Assembly (NCBI GenBank): GCA_003221515.1 | Contig: QHSI01000119.1 | Span: 1 to 52,436 of the forward strand | Length of the DNA: 52,436 nucleotides | Source: Candidatus Rokuibacteriota bacterium | Lineage (GTDB): Bacteria > Methylomirabilota > Methylomirabilia > Rokubacteriales > CSP1-6 | Direction of reading: 5' to 3' | Shown: positions 5,453-37,137 of the stretch, piece after piece | How the letters are laid out: each line of letters begins with the position of its first letter | How positions within the stretch are numbered: position 1 is the stretch's first letter | Notes under the pieces: model-generated | Database searches by the model: none | Told to the model about the DNA's origin: nothing | The model's input: only the letters and a program-made list of their open reading frames with translations | Position numbers and translations under genes: made by a program

Positions 5453-5887
5453 CTACAGCGTCTTGATGACCTCGGCCGGCCACGCGCGCGGGTCGACGCG
5501 CTGGTGCCACTCCTTGATCTTCCCGTCGCGATCGATCACGACGCCGACGCGCTGTGCGCCCTTCTGCGGGTCGACGTTGGCGCCGTAGGCGGTGCCGATC
5601 GTCCGGTCGGTGTCGCAGATCAGAGGGAAGTTGAAGTGGTTCTTGTCGGCGAATTTCTTGTTGTCGGTCGGCGTATCGAAGGACACGCCCACGATCACCG
5701 CGTTTTTCCCCTCGTAGTCGTGCTTCAGGTCGCGGAACCCGCAACCCTCGGCCGTTCAGCCGCCGGTGTCGGCCTTGGGGAAGAACCAGAGCACGATGGT
5801 CTTCCCCTTGAAGTCCGAAAGCTTCACGGTCTGGCCGTTGTGATCGCGGCCCACGAAGTCGGGCGCCTTGTCGCCGGGGTTGAGCAT
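5453..5887 (-). CDS. bcp: Selenocysteine peroxiredoxin (BCP/PrxQ type, Sec44)
   Basis: Thiol/selenol peroxidase reducing hydroperoxides. The frame runs from ATG 5887 (ribosome site GGAGGG just upstream) to TAG at 5453 with one internal in-frame TGA at 5756-5758. Read as selenocysteine the product is 144 residues, close to the family's usual 150. The motif is P37-x3-T41-x2-U44, with resolving C49, so the U-TAEG-C spacing equals the Cp-x4-Cr spacing of BCP/PrxQ. Upstream KAPDFVGRDHNGQTVKLSDF and downstream VGVSFDTPTDNKKFADK and RVGVVIDRDGKIKEW are normal BCP blocks, so coding continues without loss on both sides of the TGA. A SECIS-like hairpin follows (5728-5746). It lies 17 bp after the MFS gene, probably one transcript. 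The alternative is a nonsense mutation of the catalytic Cys codon. Confidence 0.93.
5728..5758 (-). promoter_or_regulatory. Sec UGA codon and bacterial SECIS element (peroxiredoxin)
   Basis: The UGA is at 5756-5758. On the mRNA, 5746 to 5728 forms an 8-bp stem, GGUUGCGG-GUU-CCGCGACC, with one U-G pair and a three-base loop. The loop starts 17 nt after the UGA and its first base is G. Both agree with the published bacterial SECIS rules (loop 16-37 nt after UGA, G within the first two loop bases). The stem also encodes the conserved EGCGFRD segment. Confidence 0.85.
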
Positions 5888-17022: not shown

Positions 17023-17778
17023 TCAGATGCCGCGGCGAAGGCCGCCGTCGACGTGGATGCGCTCGCCGGAGATGTAGCGCGCCTTCGGCGAGCAGAGGAA
17101 CGTGACGAGGTTGGCCATGTCGCTGGGATCGCCGAAATAGCCCAGCGGGATCTGGCGGGCGAACTGCTCGCGGCTCTCGGGTGTCGGGTGCAGGCGCGTG
17201 TCGATCTGTTCGCTGTGGATGCGCCCAGGCGCGAGGCAGTTCACGGTGATCCCGTGGCGGCCCACGTCGCGCGAGAGCCCCTTGGCCCACGCATGGACGG
17301 CGGCCTTGGCCGGCCCGGCCGCGTTCGTGCCGGCCGGCTCCGACGTGCCGGTGATGTTGATGATCCGCCCCCACTTGCGCTCGATCATGCCGGGCAGGAG
17401 GGCTTGGGTGAGCCTGCGGACCGCGATGAAGTTGATCGCGAACGACTCGTCCCACACGGTGTCGGGCGCGTCCATCGCCGTGGGGCGGGAGCCGCCGGCG
17501 TTGTTCACGAGGATGTCGACGCGGCCGCCGAGCCGCGCCCAGGCCTCGTCGCGCACGCGCGCGGCCGACTCGCGGTCGGCCAGATCGATCGCCAGCGCGT
17601 GCGGGCGCGGCCAGCCCGCGCCCTCGATCTCGTCCTGCAAGGTCTTCAAGAGCTCTCCGCGGCGCGCGACGACCAGGGCCGACACGCCTTCGGCGGCGAG
17701 CACGCGGGCGATCTCCCGCCCGATGCCCACGCTGCATCCGGTCACGACAGCGGTGCGGCCGCGAAGCTCGAGGTCCAT
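17023..17778 (-). CDS. SDR-family protein lacking the catalytic tyrosine
   Basis: 251-residue Rossmann-fold short-chain dehydrogenase/reductase relative. The nucleotide loop TGCSVGIGREIA (residues 13-24), ALAIDLADRE and NNAGG (92-96) are intact. The YxxxK motif is instead A154-G-P-A-K158 (TNAAGPAKAAVHAWAKGLSR), so the catalytic Tyr is missing while Lys is kept. The C-terminal LCSPKARYISGERIHVDGGL is normal. It may bind NAD(P) without ordinary dehydrogenase activity, or use another acid. ATG 17778 overlaps the CMD stop by one base and has GGAGGG upstream; TTG 17781 is an unlikely alternative. Confidence 0.88.
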   Translation of the reverse strand: MDLELRGRTAVVTGCSVGIGREIARVLAAEGVSALVVARRGELLKTLQDEIEGAGWPRPHALAIDLADRESAARVRDEAWARLGGRVDILVNNAGGSRPTAMDAPDTVWDESFAINFIAVRRLTQALLPGMIERKWGRIINITGTSEPAGTNAAGPAKAAVHAWAKGLSRDVGRHGITVNCLAPGRIHSEQIDTRLHPTPESREQFARQIPLGYFGDPSDMANLVTFLCSPKARYISGERIHVDGGLRRGI

Positions 17779-18179
17779 CAATCCCTCCGGAGGAACAGCT
17801 CGTCGATCTCGACCTGGTAGCCGTCGGCCAGCCGGTTCGTCTCGTTCGCCATGCCGACCACGGCCATCAGCTCGCCCAGCATCGCGTCCGTCATACCCTG
17901 CTTCCGTGCGGACGCGGTGTGGGAGGCGGTGCAGTAGTCGCAGCCGTTGGTGGCGCTCACCGCCAGATAGACCATCTCTTTCGTCAGCGGGTCGAGCGCG
18001 CCCGGCGCCATCACCGACTTCAAGGTCTCCCAGGTGCGCCGGAGCGTCGGCGGATGGCTGGCGAGCGCTTTCCAGAAGTTGTTGATGGCGTCGATCTTCC
18101 GCGTGGCCATGATGTCGTCGTAGACCGCGCGCACCTCGGGGCTCGCCTGCGCGTACTCGATCAGCTTGACGGTCGCCAT
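17778..18179 (-). CDS. Carboxymuconolactone decarboxylase (AhpD-like) family protein, Cys form
   Basis: 133-residue all-helical CMD-family protein with redox motif NGCDYCTASH, that is CxxC plus the proton-relay histidine four residues later (C-x2-C-x3-H). This is the AhpD-type peroxidase or disulfide-reductase signature. It serves as an in-window cysteine counterpart of the Sec protein at 32578. First gene of the CMD-SDR-hyuA-hyuB-VOC set. TTGACC, 17 bp, TAGCGT lies immediately upstream and predicts transcription starting at or next to the ATG. Confidence 0.9.
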   Translation of the reverse strand: MATVKLIEYAQASPEVRAVYDDIMATRKIDAINNFWKALASHPPTLRRTWETLKSVMAPGALDPLTKEMVYLAVSATNGCDYCTASHTASARKQGMTDAMLGELMAVVGMANETNRLADGYQVEIDELFLRRD

Positions 18180-20445: not shown

Positions 20446-20994
20446 ATGCCCAGAGTCGCCCCGATCACCGGAAAGTCCGACGTGCCGGCCGAGCATCACG
20501 CCGTCGTCGACGGCGTGCTGAAGACGTTCGGGCAGGTGCGCGGCCCGTTCAGCATGCTGCTGCACAGCCCCAAGCTCGCGGAGCGGCTGCTACCGCTGGT
20601 CCACTTCTTCCGCGACGAGAGCGCGGTCGACGCCAAGCTTCGCTCGGTCGCGATCCTGGCGGCCGTGCGCGAGCGCGAGGCGGCGTACGTGTGGGCGGCC
20701 CAGGTCGGGGCGGCGCGCCGCAACGGCCTCAGCGACGAGATCATCGACGTGCTTCGGGCGAAGGGGGACCCCGGCAAGCTGCCCGCCGAAGAGCGGGACA
20801 TCGTGGTCTACGTCCGCCAACTCATGCGCACGAACCGCGTCGATCAAGGCGCGTTCGACGCGCTTGCCAAGCGGCACGATCCGAAGTGGCTGGTCGAGCT
20901 GACCGCGGCCGCGAACTACTTCGCGCTCCTGTCCGGCGTCGTCAACGCGTTCGAGGTGGCCGCCCCACCGGACGGGGACAAGCTGCCGGTGTAG
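20446..20994 (+). CDS. CMD/AhpD-like fold protein without redox cysteines
   Basis: 182-residue helical protein of the carboxymuconolactone decarboxylase superfamily. The region that would hold CxxC reads AILAAVREREAAYVWAAQVG, so there is no cysteine pair; the E-x-A-Y-V-W-x-x-Q/H pattern is that of the non-redox CMD branch (E-AYEW-H type). LPAEERDIVVYVRQLMRTNR and VELTAAANYFALLSGVVNAF are family-like. It probably works as a decarboxylase, hydrolase or isomerase on a ring-cleavage intermediate. AAGGAG upstream of ATG 20446. Confidence 0.82.
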   Translation: MPRVAPITGKSDVPAEHHAVVDGVLKTFGQVRGPFSMLLHSPKLAERLLPLVHFFRDESAVDAKLRSVAILAAVREREAAYVWAAQVGAARRNGLSDEIIDVLRAKGDPGKLPAEERDIVVYVRQLMRTNRVDQGAFDALAKRHDPKWLVELTAAANYFALLSGVVNAFEVAAPPDGDKLPV

Positions 20995-31977: not shown

Positions 31978-32609
31978 GCCGCATTTTCCTGCTCTCGCCG
32001 GCGCACTGCGGGGGAGAGCGCGCCCGGCTCGTCCTCAACGATCGAGCCGCCTTCGATCTCGCGCGACGAGTTCGCGGCGGCGCGGGCGCGCCGATCGGCG
32101 AGGTCTTCTCGTTCTTCAGCGGGCTCTACTTCCGCGGCAAGCTGGCGTACGCGCGCGCGTTCGCGCGCCCACCCCACGGTGGCGTGGGGATCTACGTCAT
32201 CACACCCACCGAAGGGCTGCGGCCCGCCGACGAGCCGGTCGATCTCGACCGGCTCCGACGATTCGCCAGCGTCGACATCGCCGGCGACGATCCGCGCTAT
32301 CGCACGCCGCTCGATCGTGACGCGCGCCGGCTCGCCGAGCGGATCGAGACGGACGGCGAGGTGATCTTGCTCGGCAGCATCGCGACGGGCAAGTACGTGG
32401 AACCGCTCATGGCCGCGCTCGGCGAACGGCTGCGATTCCCGCTGGACTTCGTCGGACGCGGCGACATGAGCCGCGGAGGCCTTCTGCTGCGGTGCGCGCG
32501 GGCGGGAACCGAGCTGACCTACGTCGGCATTCGCGACGCGGTCCGCCGCGGACCCCGCCCGCCTCGACTGCGTCCTTCTACGCCGGCTCGATCCCGACGA
32601 TCTCGTTGA
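31974..32609 (+). CDS. Hypothetical protein coupled to PolX-like gene
   Basis: 211 residues, not recognised. GTG 31974 overlaps the preceding stop (GTGA), so translation is coupled. It reads SRIFLLSPAHCGGERARLVL, EVFSFFSGLYFRGKLAYARA, GIYVITPTEGLRPADEPVDL and DGEVILLGSIATGKYVEPLM, which resembles a nucleotide- or nucleobase-processing alpha/beta protein in style. The basic C-terminus (after ELTYVGIRDAV) overlaps the 3' end of the convergent seleno-AhpD gene by 32 bp. The tight pairing suggests a role with the PolX/PHP protein, perhaps in repair. Confidence 0.75.
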   Translation: MSRIFLLSPAHCGGERARLVLNDRAAFDLARRVRGGAGAPIGEVFSFFSGLYFRGKLAYARAFARPPHGGVGIYVITPTEGLRPADEPVDLDRLRRFASVDIAGDDPRYRTPLDRDARRLAERIETDGEVILLGSIATGKYVEPLMAALGERLRFPLDFVGRGDMSRGGLLLRCARAGTELTYVGIRDAVRRGPRPPRLRPSTPARSRRSR

Positions 32610-33096
32610 AGCGCCCGAAGCCGATGTAGAGCGTCGCGTGGGCGACCAGCTCGACGATCTCGGCCTCGGTGAAGTGCCGTCGTATCTCCGACCAGAGCGC
32701 GTCGTCGACCTTCTGATGGTCGACCGCGAGCTTCTCGGCGAACCGGATCCCGGCGCGCTCGCGCGGGGTCAGCAGAGTCGACGTTTCGTCGTCGATCGCG
32801 GCGATCTTCGCTTCCGTCACCCCCGCATGCCGGGCCCCGGCATAGCGTACGGTGAGTCAGTAGCGACACGCGTTGAGCGCGGCGATCTTCAGCCGCACCA
32901 GCTCGCGGAGCCCCGGGTCGATCGTGCCCTCACGCGCGAGCGTTCCGCGGAAGGCCGCCAACGCTTTCACCACCGCCGGGTTCCTGGCGTAGGTGCGCGT
33001 GCTCGCCGAGGTACCGGACTGGCGCTCGGCCTCTTCGCACAGGTGCCGGATCTCCCCGTCGACCTCGTGAACGCCCAGCGGATCCATCCTCGGCAT
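32578..33096 (-). CDS. AhpD-like (CMD family) selenoprotein with CxxU motif, Sec80
   Basis: Predicted thiol/selenol redox enzyme of the peroxidase-related CMD family. From ATG 33096 (AAAGGAGCC upstream) the frame runs to TAG at 32578 with one in-frame TGA at 32857-32859. Before it: GLRELVRLKIAALNACRY; after it: LTVRYAGARHAGVTEAKIAA, exactly the family text around C-x-x-C. So the second cysteine of the pair is encoded as UGA: C77-R-Y-U80. The whole product is 172 residues, normal length, including LVAHATLYIGFGRFNEIVGI at the end. A SECIS-like hairpin follows at once. It is the last gene of a unit with a lactonase-like and a BNR protein. A conventional call would give two pieces of about 79 residues each. 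Confidence 0.93.
32826..32859 (-). promoter_or_regulatory. Sec UGA codon and bacterial SECIS element (AhpD-like)
   Basis: UGA at 32857-32859. On the mRNA, AUGCCGG-GGC-CCGGCAU forms a perfect 7-bp stem (plus an outer U-G pair, 32844 to 32826) with a three-base loop beginning with G. The loop starts after 20 nt, within the bacterial SECIS limits. The stem encodes YAGARHA. Confidence 0.85.
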
Positions 33097-33128: not shown

Positions 33129-34214
33129 CTACGGGAGATCGACGATCTCGATCCAGTTCGGGTTCTTGCCCATCGGATACTCCTTGAGCTTGGTGAGCTT
33201 GCCGCTGGTCTGGTCGATCGCGTAGCTCGACATGGCGTGGGACAGCTGGCCGACCGCCAGCAGGTAGCGGCCTGACGTGTCGATCGCGAAGCCGCGCGGC
33301 TGTTTTTCGGTCGGCACGCTGCCGAACGAGGTCAGCGTGCCCTTCATTGCGTCGACGGCGAAGCCGGCCAGCGTGCTCGACGTGCGCTCCGACGCGTAGA
33401 GGAACTTACCGTCCGGCGTGATGTGCAGGTCGGCGGCCGACGGCTTGCCCTCGAAGCCGGGCGGTAGCGCGCTGACGGACTGCTTCTGCGTGAGGTCGCC
33501 GGTGGCCCCGTGATAGTCGAACACGTAGACGGCGCCGTCGAGCTCGCCCACGACGTAGACGATCTTGCCACCGGGGTGATAGACGAAGTGGCGCGGACCG
33601 GCCTTGGCCTTCACTTCGGCCGCCGGCGACGTCGTGGGCGCCAGCTTGCCGGTCGCCGCGTCGAACGTGAACTGGTTGACCCGGTCGTTGCCGAGCGTGG
33701 GCACGAGCACGTGGCGGTTGGCCGCGTCGGCCATGATCGCGTGCGCGTTGGGATAGTTCGGCAGCACCTGCTGCGGCGGCTGCACCGTGCCGGCAGGCCC
33801 GATCGGGTTCACGGTGACCTTGTGACCGGGGTACGACGCACCGAGCAGGAAGCGGCCCGTCCGGTCGGTGGCGATGTAGGCCAGGCTGTCGGCGAGGGGA
33901 CCGCTGGCGACGTGCTTGAGCCGGCCGCTCGCCTGATCGATGGCGAAGCCCGCGGCGACCTTCGGCTCGCCGCGCGTGCCGACGTAGAGGAAGCGGCGGT
34001 CGGGACTCACCGACATCGGCGTCGAGATGCCCGGCTTCTCGATGCCGGGGATCGCGACCCTCTCCACGACCGTGAGGTCGCCGCGCTGCCGATCGAGCTG
34101 GAGCACGTAGATCTCGTTGCTCTCGGCGTTGCCGACGTACACGAACGTGGCGGCCGCCGCGGGGGACGCCATCAGCGCACCCAGGACCAGGAGAATCGCG
34201 GTGAGCAATGCCAT
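33129..34214 (-). CDS. Secreted lactonase-family beta-propeller (6-phosphogluconolactonase-like)
   Basis: 361 residues. Signal peptide MALLTAILLVLGALMASPAA, then a seven-bladed propeller of the YbhE/Pgl lactonase_7 type with repeated blades: FVYVGNAESNEIYVLQLD, SVSPDRRFLYVGTRGEPKVA, ITPDGKFLYASERTSSTLAG, AIDTSGRYLLAVGQLSHAMS. Export argues against a role in the pentose phosphate pathway; a lactonase or scaffold role outside the cytoplasm is more likely. Middle gene of the BNR-lactonase-selenoprotein unit, 19 bp after the BNR gene. Confidence 0.9.
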   Translation of the reverse strand: MALLTAILLVLGALMASPAAAATFVYVGNAESNEIYVLQLDRQRGDLTVVERVAIPGIEKPGISTPMSVSPDRRFLYVGTRGEPKVAAGFAIDQASGRLKHVASGPLADSLAYIATDRTGRFLLGASYPGHKVTVNPIGPAGTVQPPQQVLPNYPNAHAIMADAANRHVLVPTLGNDRVNQFTFDAATGKLAPTTSPAAEVKAKAGPRHFVYHPGGKIVYVVGELDGAVYVFDYHGATGDLTQKQSVSALPPGFEGKPSAADLHITPDGKFLYASERTSSTLAGFAVDAMKGTLTSFGSVPTEKQPRGFAIDTSGRYLLAVGQLSHAMSSYAIDQTSGKLTKLKEYPMGKNPNWIEIVDLP

Positions 34215-34233
34215 GACATCCTCCGTTCAGGCT

Positions 34234-35196
34234 TCACGCCGGCAGCCACGCCGCGGTGCGGATCTCGCCGAACTCGCGCGCGATCTTGCGCCAGGACTCG
34301 CCGGCGTCCTCGGTGACGTAGACCTCGCCGAAGAGCGTGAACGCCACGACCCGCGCCGGATCGGCCGGATGGGTCGCCAGGCCCCACAAGGTCGCGTTGG
34401 GCCGGCCGGGCAGCAGCACGCTCTGCCATGTCTTGCCACCATCGCTCGAGCGGAGCACACCGCCCGTTTCTCCTGTCGTGGTCTGGCCGCACCCGGCGAA
34501 CAGCACGCGCGCATCGTCGGTCTTCACCGCGATGCCGCGGGCGTAGGGCAGGGGCCACTGGCTCTTGACGCCGATCGGCGTCCACGTCTCGCCGCGATCG
34601 TCGCTCCAGAACAGCTCGCCGTTCGTGCTGACCCAGGCGCGCGGCGGGCTCGTGCGCGCGAGGGCCATGTCGTGGACGTCGGGGTCGTGGAGGCCGCGCA
34701 CGACTTTCGTCCAGGTGTCGCCGCCGTCGAGACTGCGGAAGACGCCGTCGATCTCGACGCCGGCCCACACGATGCGCGGGTCGTCGGCGTCGACGAGCAC
34801 GCGGGTCACGAACGCCTGTCCGATCGAGCACTCGGTCGCGGCGGGGACGTCGAGCTTCTGCCACGACCGCCCGCCGTCGCGCGAACGATAGATCGCGGTC
34901 GGTCGCGTCCCCGCGAACAGCGTCTGCGGATCGGACGGGTCCACGGCCAGCGACCAGACCGTCGGCAGGTCGCCGGCGGCGCCGACCCGCGCCCACGAGG
35001 CGCCGCCGTCGTGGCTCGCGAACACGCCGGTGTCGCCGGCGGCCAGCAGGCCGCGCGGCTCGCCCGGCAGAACGGTCAACGCCTGGATCCGCGAGTTCAG
35101 CGGGAACGGCTTGCGATGCCGCACCCACGACTTGCCCGCGTCCGGGCTGTGCCACACGCCCCACCCAGCCGTACCGAGGTTGATGTGGTAGTCCAT
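34234..35196 (-). CDS. BNR/sialidase-like beta-propeller protein
   Basis: 320-residue protein of repeated Asp-box (BNR) motifs: SPDAGKSWVRH, SHDGGASWARV, SRDGGRSWQKL, SLDGGDTWTKV, SDDRGETWTPI, SSDGGKTWQSV, TEDAGESWRKI. It resembles the Ycf48/VPS10-like or exo-sialidase propellers that lack catalytic residues; most likely a binding or scaffold protein. No signal peptide with the chosen start (ATG 35196). A TAGATG seven bases before the ATG may be a -10. First gene of the unit leading to the seleno-AhpD. Confidence 0.88.
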   Translation of the reverse strand: MDYHINLGTAGWGVWHSPDAGKSWVRHRKPFPLNSRIQALTVLPGEPRGLLAAGDTGVFASHDGGASWARVGAAGDLPTVWSLAVDPSDPQTLFAGTRPTAIYRSRDGGRSWQKLDVPAATECSIGQAFVTRVLVDADDPRIVWAGVEIDGVFRSLDGGDTWTKVVRGLHDPDVHDMALARTSPPRAWVSTNGELFWSDDRGETWTPIGVKSQWPLPYARGIAVKTDDARVLFAGCGQTTTGETGGVLRSSDGGKTWQSVLLPGRPNATLWGLATHPADPARVVAFTLFGEVYVTEDAGESWRKIAREFGEIRTAAWLPA

Positions 35197-35286
35197 GCGC
35201 GAACATCTACACGAAGGACGCGTCGTCGGCAATCCCATTGGGACGCTTGACGCTGGCCGCTCGCCCGCGCGATGCTCCGGCCGGCG

Positions 35287-37137
35287 ATGAGAGAGCGTGA
35301 ACCCGCGCCGAAGGACGAGTACCGGCGGCGGGAGTCACTGCACCAGGCGCGCGCGGCCAACTCCCGCCGGTTCGAGGAACGGATCTCGCGCGCCCGCCTC
35401 GGCGTCGCGCTGACGGCGGCGCTGGTCGCATGGCTCGCGTTCGGGGCGGCCGTGCTGTCGCCGTGGTGGCTCGCGGCGCCGGCCCTGGCGTTCGCGACCC
35501 TGGTGGTGGTCCACGGGCGTGTTCGCGGGCGGTGCCGGCAGGCGGAGCGGCGCGCGGCGTTCTACCGACGAGGGCTCGCGCGTCTCGCTGGCCAGTGGGC
35601 GGGGGCCGGCCGCACCGGAGATCGCTTCCGCGATCCCCGCCACCCGTACGCCGACGGTCTCGACCTCTTCGGCGAAGGCTCGCTGTACGAGCTGCTCTGC
35701 GACGCGCGGACCCGCATGGGCGAGGAGACGATCGCCGCGTGGCTGCTGGCGCCGTCGGATCCCGCATCGGTGCGCGCCCGGCAGACGGCGGTGCAGGCCC
35801 TGACGCCGCGCCTGGACCTGCGCGAGGACCTGGCGGTCCTCGGCGAGGAGGTCGCGGCGACCGCGCGCCCCGATGCCCTCGCGTCGCTGGCGACATCGGC
35901 GGCGAGTCCACCCGGGATGCGCCTCCGGCTCGGCGCGGCGGCGATCGGCGCGGCGACGCTCGCGGCCGTCGTGTCGTGGGCCCTGGGCTGGGCTCCGTCC
36001 AGCGTGGCGTTGGGCGCGCTGGCCATCCAGAGCCTGATCCGTGGTCGGCTGGGACGTCACGTGTTGGAGGCCGATCGGGCGGTCGCCGGCCACGGACCAG
36101 ACCTCGATCTGCTGGCCGCGGTGTTCGAACGGTTCGAGCGGGAGCCGCCCGGAAGCCCTCTGCTCGTCCGCCTCCACGCGGACCTCATGTCCCAGGGGTG
36201 GCGCCCGTCGCGCGCGGTGGGAAGGCTGCGTGTCTGGGTGGATCTGCTCGACGCGCGGCGCAATCAGTTCTTCGTGCCGTTCGACGTGCTCACCATGTGG
36301 AGCGTGCATTGCGCCCTCGCGGTGGAGGCGTGGCGGGTGCGCCACGGCGCCTCCGTCGCCGCGTGGCTGTCGGCGGCCGGGCAGCTCGAGGCCCTGTGCT
36401 CGCTGGCTGGCTATGCGTCGGAGCACCCGGACGACGTCTATCCGACGATCGAGGAGGCCCGGGTGTGCTTCGAGGCGGAGGCCCTGGGACACCCGCTCAT
36501 CCCCGATGCCAGCTGCGTGCGCAACGACGTGGCGCTCGGGGGCACCGCGCGAGTCCTGATCGTCAGCGGCTCGAACATGTCGGGGAAGAGCACGCTGCTA
36601 CGGGCCGTGGGCGCGAACACCGTGCTGGCGCTGGCCGGCGCGCCGGTGCGGGCGTCGCGGCTCCGACTCTCGCTGCTCTACCCCGGCGCGACGCTGCTCA
36701 TCCGGGACTCGCTCCAGGAGGGCACCTCGCGTTTCTATGCGGAGTTGATCCGCTTGCGCGACCTCGTCCGCATCGCCGACGGACCGATCCCCCTGCTGTT
36801 CCTGCTCGACGAGATTCTCCATGGAACGAACTCGCACGATCGTCGGCTCGGCGCCGCGGCCGTCGTCCACGGCCTGACGCAGCGAGGGGCGATCGGTCTC
36901 ATCACCACGCATGATCTGGCGCTGTCCGAGGTCGCGGAGGATCCTGCGGTCCACGCCGTCAACGTCCACTTCGCCGACCGGCTCGAGGATGGGCGCATGC
37001 TCTTCGACTACCGGATGCGCCCGGGCGTTGTCCGGACGTCGAACGCGCTGGCCCTGATGCGGACACTCGGGCTTTGGCCCGAAGCGCCGCCCTCGGGACC
37101 CGAGGGGCCGCGCCATCAGGCGGGCGGAACGAGTTGA
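35287..37137 (+). CDS. Membrane-anchored MutS-like ATPase
   Basis: 616 residues related to the MutS C-terminal ATPase (MSH-like, distinct from mismatch-repair MutS1). Residues about 40-85 hold two hydrophobic helices (VALTAALVAWLAFGAAVLSP, then LAAPALAFATLVVVHG) and another pair lies near 215-255. A MutS-like lever/clamp region follows (DLFGEGSLYELLCDARTRMG onwards). Walker A is SGSNMSGKSTLLRAVG (about 427-442), signature DSLQEGTSRFYAELIRL, Walker B PLLFLLDEILHGTNSHDR (about 505-522) and the H-loop LITTHD near 540. No mismatch-recognition domain. Function unknown; this branch is common and uncharacterised. ATG 35287 chosen without a clear ribosome site. Confidence 0.88.
   Translation: MREREPAPKDEYRRRESLHQARAANSRRFEERISRARLGVALTAALVAWLAFGAAVLSPWWLAAPALAFATLVVVHGRVRGRCRQAERRAAFYRRGLARLAGQWAGAGRTGDRFRDPRHPYADGLDLFGEGSLYELLCDARTRMGEETIAAWLLAPSDPASVRARQTAVQALTPRLDLREDLAVLGEEVAATARPDALASLATSAASPPGMRLRLGAAAIGAATLAAVVSWALGWAPSSVALGALAIQSLIRGRLGRHVLEADRAVAGHGPDLDLLAAVFERFEREPPGSPLLVRLHADLMSQGWRPSRAVGRLRVWVDLLDARRNQFFVPFDVLTMWSVHCALAVEAWRVRHGASVAAWLSAAGQLEALCSLAGYASEHPDDVYPTIEEARVCFEAEALGHPLIPDASCVRNDVALGGTARVLIVSGSNMSGKSTLLRAVGANTVLALAGAPVRASRLRLSLLYPGATLLIRDSLQEGTSRFYAELIRLRDLVRIADGPIPLLFLLDEILHGTNSHDRRLGAAAVVHGLTQRGAIGLITTHDLALSEVAEDPAVHAVNVHFADRLEDGRMLFDYRMRPGVVRTSNALALMRTLGLWPEAPPSGPEGPRHQAGGTS

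Follow-up and report, generated by a model that had tools for sequence, protein, structure and literature searches.

A predicted selenocysteine in the CxxU motif of an AhpD-like protein from Rokubacteria

The 52,436-nucleotide stretch analyzed here (hereafter the window; contig QHSI01000119.1 of assembly GCA_003221515.1, Candidatus Rokuibacteriota bacterium) carries a gene for a CMD/AhpD-like protein whose reading frame contains a single in-frame TGA. The frame runs from 33096 to 32578, with an ATG at 33096 and a stop codon at 32580-32578, and its read-through translation (MPRMD...LKIAALNACRYULTVRYAGARHAG...GIEPA, 172 aa) has U at position 80. A first-pass annotation of this DNA had described two halves of one protein sharing a frame and meeting at this TGA, which the read-through frame bears out; its coordinates also stand, while the strand, which it had left unstated, is the minus strand. 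The features of the locus and of the rest of the window are collected in Table 1.

Table 1. Genes and sequence features of the locus and of the remaining window.
Feature	Position	Strand	Remarks
CMD/AhpD-like predicted selenoprotein, CDS	32578..33096	-	172 aa with UGA read as Sec, stop TAG included
In-frame UGA, predicted Sec80	32857..32859	-	second position of CxxU (CRYU)
Cys77 codon	32866..32868	-	first Cys of CxxU; C in 55/57 homologs
bSECIS-like hairpin AUGCCGG-GGC-CCGGCAU	32827..32843	-	7 bp, apical GGC, starts 16 nt after the U of UGA
Extended hairpin with lower stem, in this species	32817..32855	-	MFE -23.9 kcal/mol, z -2.4
AhpC/TSA peroxiredoxin TGGU, putative second selenoprotein gene	5453..5887	-	UGA 5756-5758, then hairpin GGUUGCGG-GUU-CCGCGACC
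Cys paralog: CMD protein, CDYC, His at Cys+4	17778..18179	-	Pfam match and homolog alignment
PF10282 lactonase-type 7-bladed beta-propeller	33129..34226	-	upstream, co-oriented, ends 32 nt before the selenoprotein gene
Sortilin-Vps10/BNR-repeat protein	34234..35334	-	next gene upstream; linkage also in relatives

The linkage to the lactonase and Vps10/BNR genes recurs, in differing arrangements, in several relatives, and the PF10282 gene is a probable operon partner. The neighboring genes point to no particular substrate or reductant. Two UGA codons at catalytic positions had been claimed for the window, and the other case is the TGGU peroxiredoxin, directly after whose UGA lies the hairpin GGUUGCGGGUUCCGCGACC. 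The Cys relative with CDYC noted earlier is likewise real. A third, weak CMD-domain match is found at 20608-20790 on the plus strand (25.9 bits vs. the Pfam cut-off of 23), with no internal stop.

Searched against the CMD/AhpD families, the read-through product matches CMD (PF02627, Pfam) over residues 40-121, a region that spans the TGA (E=1.7e-18; 66.8 bits against a gathering cut-off of 23), and it passes the cut-off of the AhpD core domain TIGR00778 (NCBIfam; 32.1 bits vs. 27.8). The best NCBIfam match, to GroundWater_YciW (NF053654, a YciW-related (seleno)protein), covers residues 1-162, nearly the whole length of the product (E=5.7e-23). Its score of 81.6 bits lies below the curated cut-off of 310, and the protein is therefore not a member; a paralog (L058) comes nearer, with 142.6 bits, also below cut-off. 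The peroxidase-related enzyme model TIGR01926 shares a similar architecture along almost the entire protein (E=2e-14), but its score too stays below the curated cut-off (53.8 vs. 81.8 bits).

The mechanical ORF list contains an 80-aa ORF started by GTG (32820-32578), as would be expected if each half had its own start. That ORF begins 12 codons past the UGA, where the active-site helix is about to end, and would lack the motif. It offers the first GTG of the 3′ half, already past the active site, and no start was found there that restores the domain. No split was seen among the Cys homologs examined, and the two halves are predicted with high confidence to fold as a single domain. Two separately started proteins are thus extremely improbable, and we treat the read-through frame as a single gene.

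Full-length orthologs (58-92% protein identity) were confined to the same family within 195 lineage genomes, and each has the TGA inside. The strand of each homolog was set by similarity, because a choice by fewest stops goes wrong where, as in this GC-rich DNA, the antisense frame is open. In the codon alignment the TGA is invariant in 17/17 full-length sequences, and chance or sequencing error is therefore excluded; the same count upholds the first-pass view that a random nonsense mutation is unlikely. One ortholog (L042) has an additional TAG at the extreme end of the match.

Across 57 homologs, the column of position 80 holds U in 35, C in 18, V or I in three and a gap in one, so that other genomes do carry Cys or Sec at this site. 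Same-subfamily homologs have Cys or Sec only; V/I, the kind of residue that would speak against the reading, occurs in just three remote CMD paralogs of the own genome, and the single gap belongs to a copy with an internal deletion. The first Cys of the motif is similarly well kept (Table 1). The in-frame UGA is hence aligned with a redox-active Cys of homologs, as expected of a selenoprotein gene. On a maximum-likelihood tree, Sec and Cys must have been exchanged three times, and records from Sphingomonadales, Caulobacterales and Actinomycetota form a Cys clade that sits among Sec clades. A Cys form, NHCLSCLALRY, was also seen in the same bacterial family, in a genome with SelA (L110, G018:C108:15446-15862), and is a candidate Sec/Cys exchange within the lineage.

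The copy with the gap comes from the same genus (L048/L111, G005:C55:19325-19579). An internal in-frame deletion joins its first residues to about residue 100 onward, taking out the active site and the UGA, and the same lactonase gene adjoins it; the deletion is either a real loss or an assembly artefact. This lost active site, together with a domain interrupted by a stop codon, could be taken as the mark of a decaying pseudogene in which the UGA is a true stop. Decay is contradicted by 17 orthologs that share this UGA and keep the frame and the protein sequence before and after it, as well as by the conserved, covarying hairpin and the Sec machinery described below. Conservation of the downstream half across genera refutes the pseudogene reading, to which we assign a vanishingly small probability.

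Directly 3′ of the UGA, at a fixed distance past it, lies a hairpin with an apical loop of GGC or GGG, in which the G is present, as in a bacterial SECIS. The local fold is stronger than that of shuffled sequences (z=-2.4). Codons 83-90, which overlap the hairpin, show the lowest synonymous variation of all 8-codon stretches of the gene (0.034 vs. a gene mean of 0.276), and TAT GCC GGG GCC CGG is essentially fixed in the 17-sequence codon alignment. With paralogs included (24 distinct sequences), 83.3% of the stem cells are paired against 62.7 (sd 2.3) in shuffles, six of the seven stem pairs have changed on both sides (29 cells vs. 8.7), and the covariation score is 0.465 vs. 0.143, controls that leave some relatedness in. 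When the stem partners are slid, only 29-44% remain paired. Alternative stems retain the same pairing with other letters (AUGCC/GGCAU, ACGCC/GGCGU, GGUCC/GGACC, CCGCACC/GGUGCGG). Cys genes lack such a hairpin at the homologous place: the mean stem is 7.0 bp in 34 Sec genes vs. 2.6 bp in 17 Cys genes, a comparison whose p-value is merely indicative because the sequences are not independent. Rfam at gathering thresholds gave no match in the window. A covariance model built on the hairpin (R1) recovers its training site in the own genome and is too small to serve for discovery across a genome; its next match, at C64:10954 (E=1e-4), lies on the antisense strand of an aldolase-like frame, where no open frame runs through its TGA, and was discarded as chance.

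The genome (5.1 Mb, 191 contigs, 95% complete) contains the machinery required to decode such a codon. A tRNA-Sec (69.8 bits, anticodon TCA by ARAGORN) lies on contig C184, near SelA (567 bits) and SelB (359 bits), and SelD (339 bits) on C150 carries an in-frame UGA of its own, read YAACAGUASK; all four are above curated cut-offs. SelA is present in 55/56 related genomes of the lineage, and Sec decoding is therefore a lineage trait.

In-frame UGAs are also frequent in this genome. A PF00578 search found one in-frame TGA in 10/22 AhpC/TSA/thioredoxin-like matches of the own genome, and in the six cases inspected (L140, L141, L144, L145, L146 and L148) the TGA falls in the active-site region, within the motifs TGGU, GSIU, YWUPFC, TPTU, TWUPTC and RWUPYC. 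So many in-frame UGAs might reflect a genome-wide reassignment of the codon to another amino acid, or non-specific suppression. Several observations oppose this: UGA also terminates many coding-like frames in the window, the inspected in-frame UGAs coincide with catalytic Cys positions or lie close to them, a hairpin follows those of the CMD genes, and tRNA-Sec with a UCA anticodon, SelA, SelB and SelD are all present. Reassignment or suppression is accordingly most improbable, and selenocysteine remains our reading of these codons. With SelD and three CMD genes counted, about 14 putative Sec genes come from three families alone, and the genome is therefore selenoprotein-rich.

Two more CMD genes with CxxU were seen in the own genome, L002 (G000:C29:75341-75760) and L007 (G000:C10:76086-76286); in the latter the frame shifts soon after the motif, by assembly error or decay. 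Many genomes of the lineage also encode short CMD proteins with AAGCTSUVPGRFAAAKQAG, in which TGA and hairpin occupy the same position (L112-L123). No sequence in 59 lineage genomes scored above the cut-off of the GSU3128 family (NF041047), and many TGA-containing CMD proteins surfaced in that search.

An AlphaFold model built on an alignment of 36 sequences has a pLDDT of 94.3 and a pTM of 0.88. The PDB entries that match it best are AhpD-like proteins (3c1l, 2prr, 6k40, PA0269 and Bmp8), and all 35 PDB chains at E<=0.001 are AhpD-like or CMD-family proteins, as an AhpD-like structure would require. The solved proteins nearest to it in sequence are PA0269 of P. aeruginosa (2o4d, 2ijc) and 7xw1; PA0269 is also alike in fold (TMt 0.87-0.91, 31-32% identity). 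Taken together, the orthologs, the Sec/Cys exchange, the covarying hairpin, the full Sec machinery and the fold agree with the first-pass proposal of Sec at the second Cys of the motif. A selenocysteine in an AhpD-fold redox protein is, on this sequence and model evidence, almost certainly the correct description. Sec80 is very strongly supported, about as certain as sequence alone allows, and from it we infer the incorporation of selenium itself.

The active site is not that of a textbook AhpD. The site of AhpD and PA0269 has been described as a relay that runs through Glu, Cys, His/Tyr, Cys and His and includes a structural water, the two Cys and the His at +4 being called invariant in solved members (PMC3141380). 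Like M. tuberculosis AhpD and PA0269, the present protein has Glu65, Cys77, Tyr79 and a second redox residue. It differs in that the second Cys is replaced by the predicted Sec80, in a longer N-terminal part, and in Arg84, which stands instead of the relay His four residues beyond the second Cys, so that the five-residue proton relay is incomplete. The protein is therefore not a canonical AhpD, and hydroperoxidase activity by the described AhpD mechanism is not to be assumed.

His at +4 is missing from the other Sec proteins as well. The 35 Sec sequences have 30 R, 4 N, 1 S and no His at this position, and Arg occupies it in twelve GSU3128-like Sec proteins of relatives too, whereas the Cys homologs have 8 H, 9 R and 1 M; the association of Sec with a missing relay His is drawn from only three independent Sec/Cys contrasts in the tree and is not phylogenetically independent. 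A selenol, ionized at neutral pH, would plausibly need no relay, and the Arg may steady the selenolate. One may go further and regard the Sec CMD proteins as a separate mechanistic class, one where Sec makes the AhpD proton relay unnecessary and Arg84 stabilizes the selenolate. The lack of a relay His in 35/35 plus 12/12 Sec proteins, with His in classical Cys members, speaks for such a class, and the Arg at +4 of one Cys clade speaks against it; we consider it a doubtful proposition, to be held loosely.

As to mechanism, a SelB-bound Sec-tRNA(UCA) would decode the UGA at 32857-32859 as Sec, directed by the hairpin directly 3′ of it. The product would be an all-helical thiol/selenol oxidoreductase with Cys77 and Sec80 at the start of its active-site helix. 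U80 is most likely the catalytic selenolate and C77 its partner. The first-pass annotation had given the selenol a resolving or relay role, which is not established: with Arg84 in place of the AhpD relay His, Sec is more plausibly the reactive residue. The selenolate would attack a peroxide or an oxidized partner, a Cys77-Sec80 selenenyl-sulfide would presumably form in catalysis, and a cellular thiol or dithiol reductant may then reopen it. By analogy with AhpD-like peroxidases, a hydroperoxide or an oxidized partner is the likeliest substrate, and an enzymatic role as an AhpD-like thiol/selenol peroxidase or relay is the assignment we favor, with moderate confidence.

On the other hand, the selenoprotein might act on a non-peroxide substrate, be it another small molecule, as in the debrominase Bmp8, or a protein disulfide in a relay. 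Bmp8 (PDB 6ohi/6ohj) gives the highest TM-scores by query length (0.85-0.88, with 0.88 for 6ohj_A), the AhpD relay His is missing in 35/35 Sec sequences, and the gene has a beta-propeller lactonase, not ahpC, as its linked neighbor. Bmp8 is, however, only 18-19% identical, a Cys enzyme acting on brominated pyrrole, and C82 is the mutated residue in its complex structure; the remaining top fold matches are peroxidase-related proteins, and a fold match does not give the substrate. A non-peroxide substrate is thus a possibility of some weight but distinctly the less probable one, and the peroxidase or relay role remains preferred.

Rokubacteria, which are uncultured and known from metagenomes of soil, are placed in the Methylomirabilota in GTDB. 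Our literature search found no paper tying Rokubacteria by that name to selenoproteins of their own. CxxU selenoproteins of the CMD/AhpD-like kind are already known and were described in 2005-2008. As the first-pass annotation stated, they were reported in marine metagenome surveys, with four CMD-domain CxxU sequences from the Sargasso Sea (PMC1088965) and 70 sequences of "AhpD-like 2" (pfam02627, CxxU) from the GOS survey (PMC2398784). These resemble the present protein in their CMD domain, in a CxxU motif whose second Cys is Sec, and in having Cys homologs and a bacterial SECIS; they differ in that they are marine reads and lack genome context. Sec forms of PF02627, TIGR01926 and NF041047 with CxxU appear in a 2026 inventory, which also states that a MAG of the Methylomirabilota has been reported in which 63 selenoprotein genes are predicted (PMC13188914). 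Both the kind of protein and the selenium-rich phylum are therefore already known, and the subfamily, which reaches the cut-off of none of the full-length models tried, is new at the level of members only.

The finding leaves the understanding of selenocysteine and of the CMD/AhpD family unchanged in kind. An annotation that reads the UGA as a stop would label this selenoprotein gene truncated or a pseudogene. Read through, the gene gives Rokubacteria a well-supported Sec enzyme that occurs across the lineage, and it suggests a possible tie between Sec and the loss of the AhpD proton-relay His that is approachable by simple enzymology.
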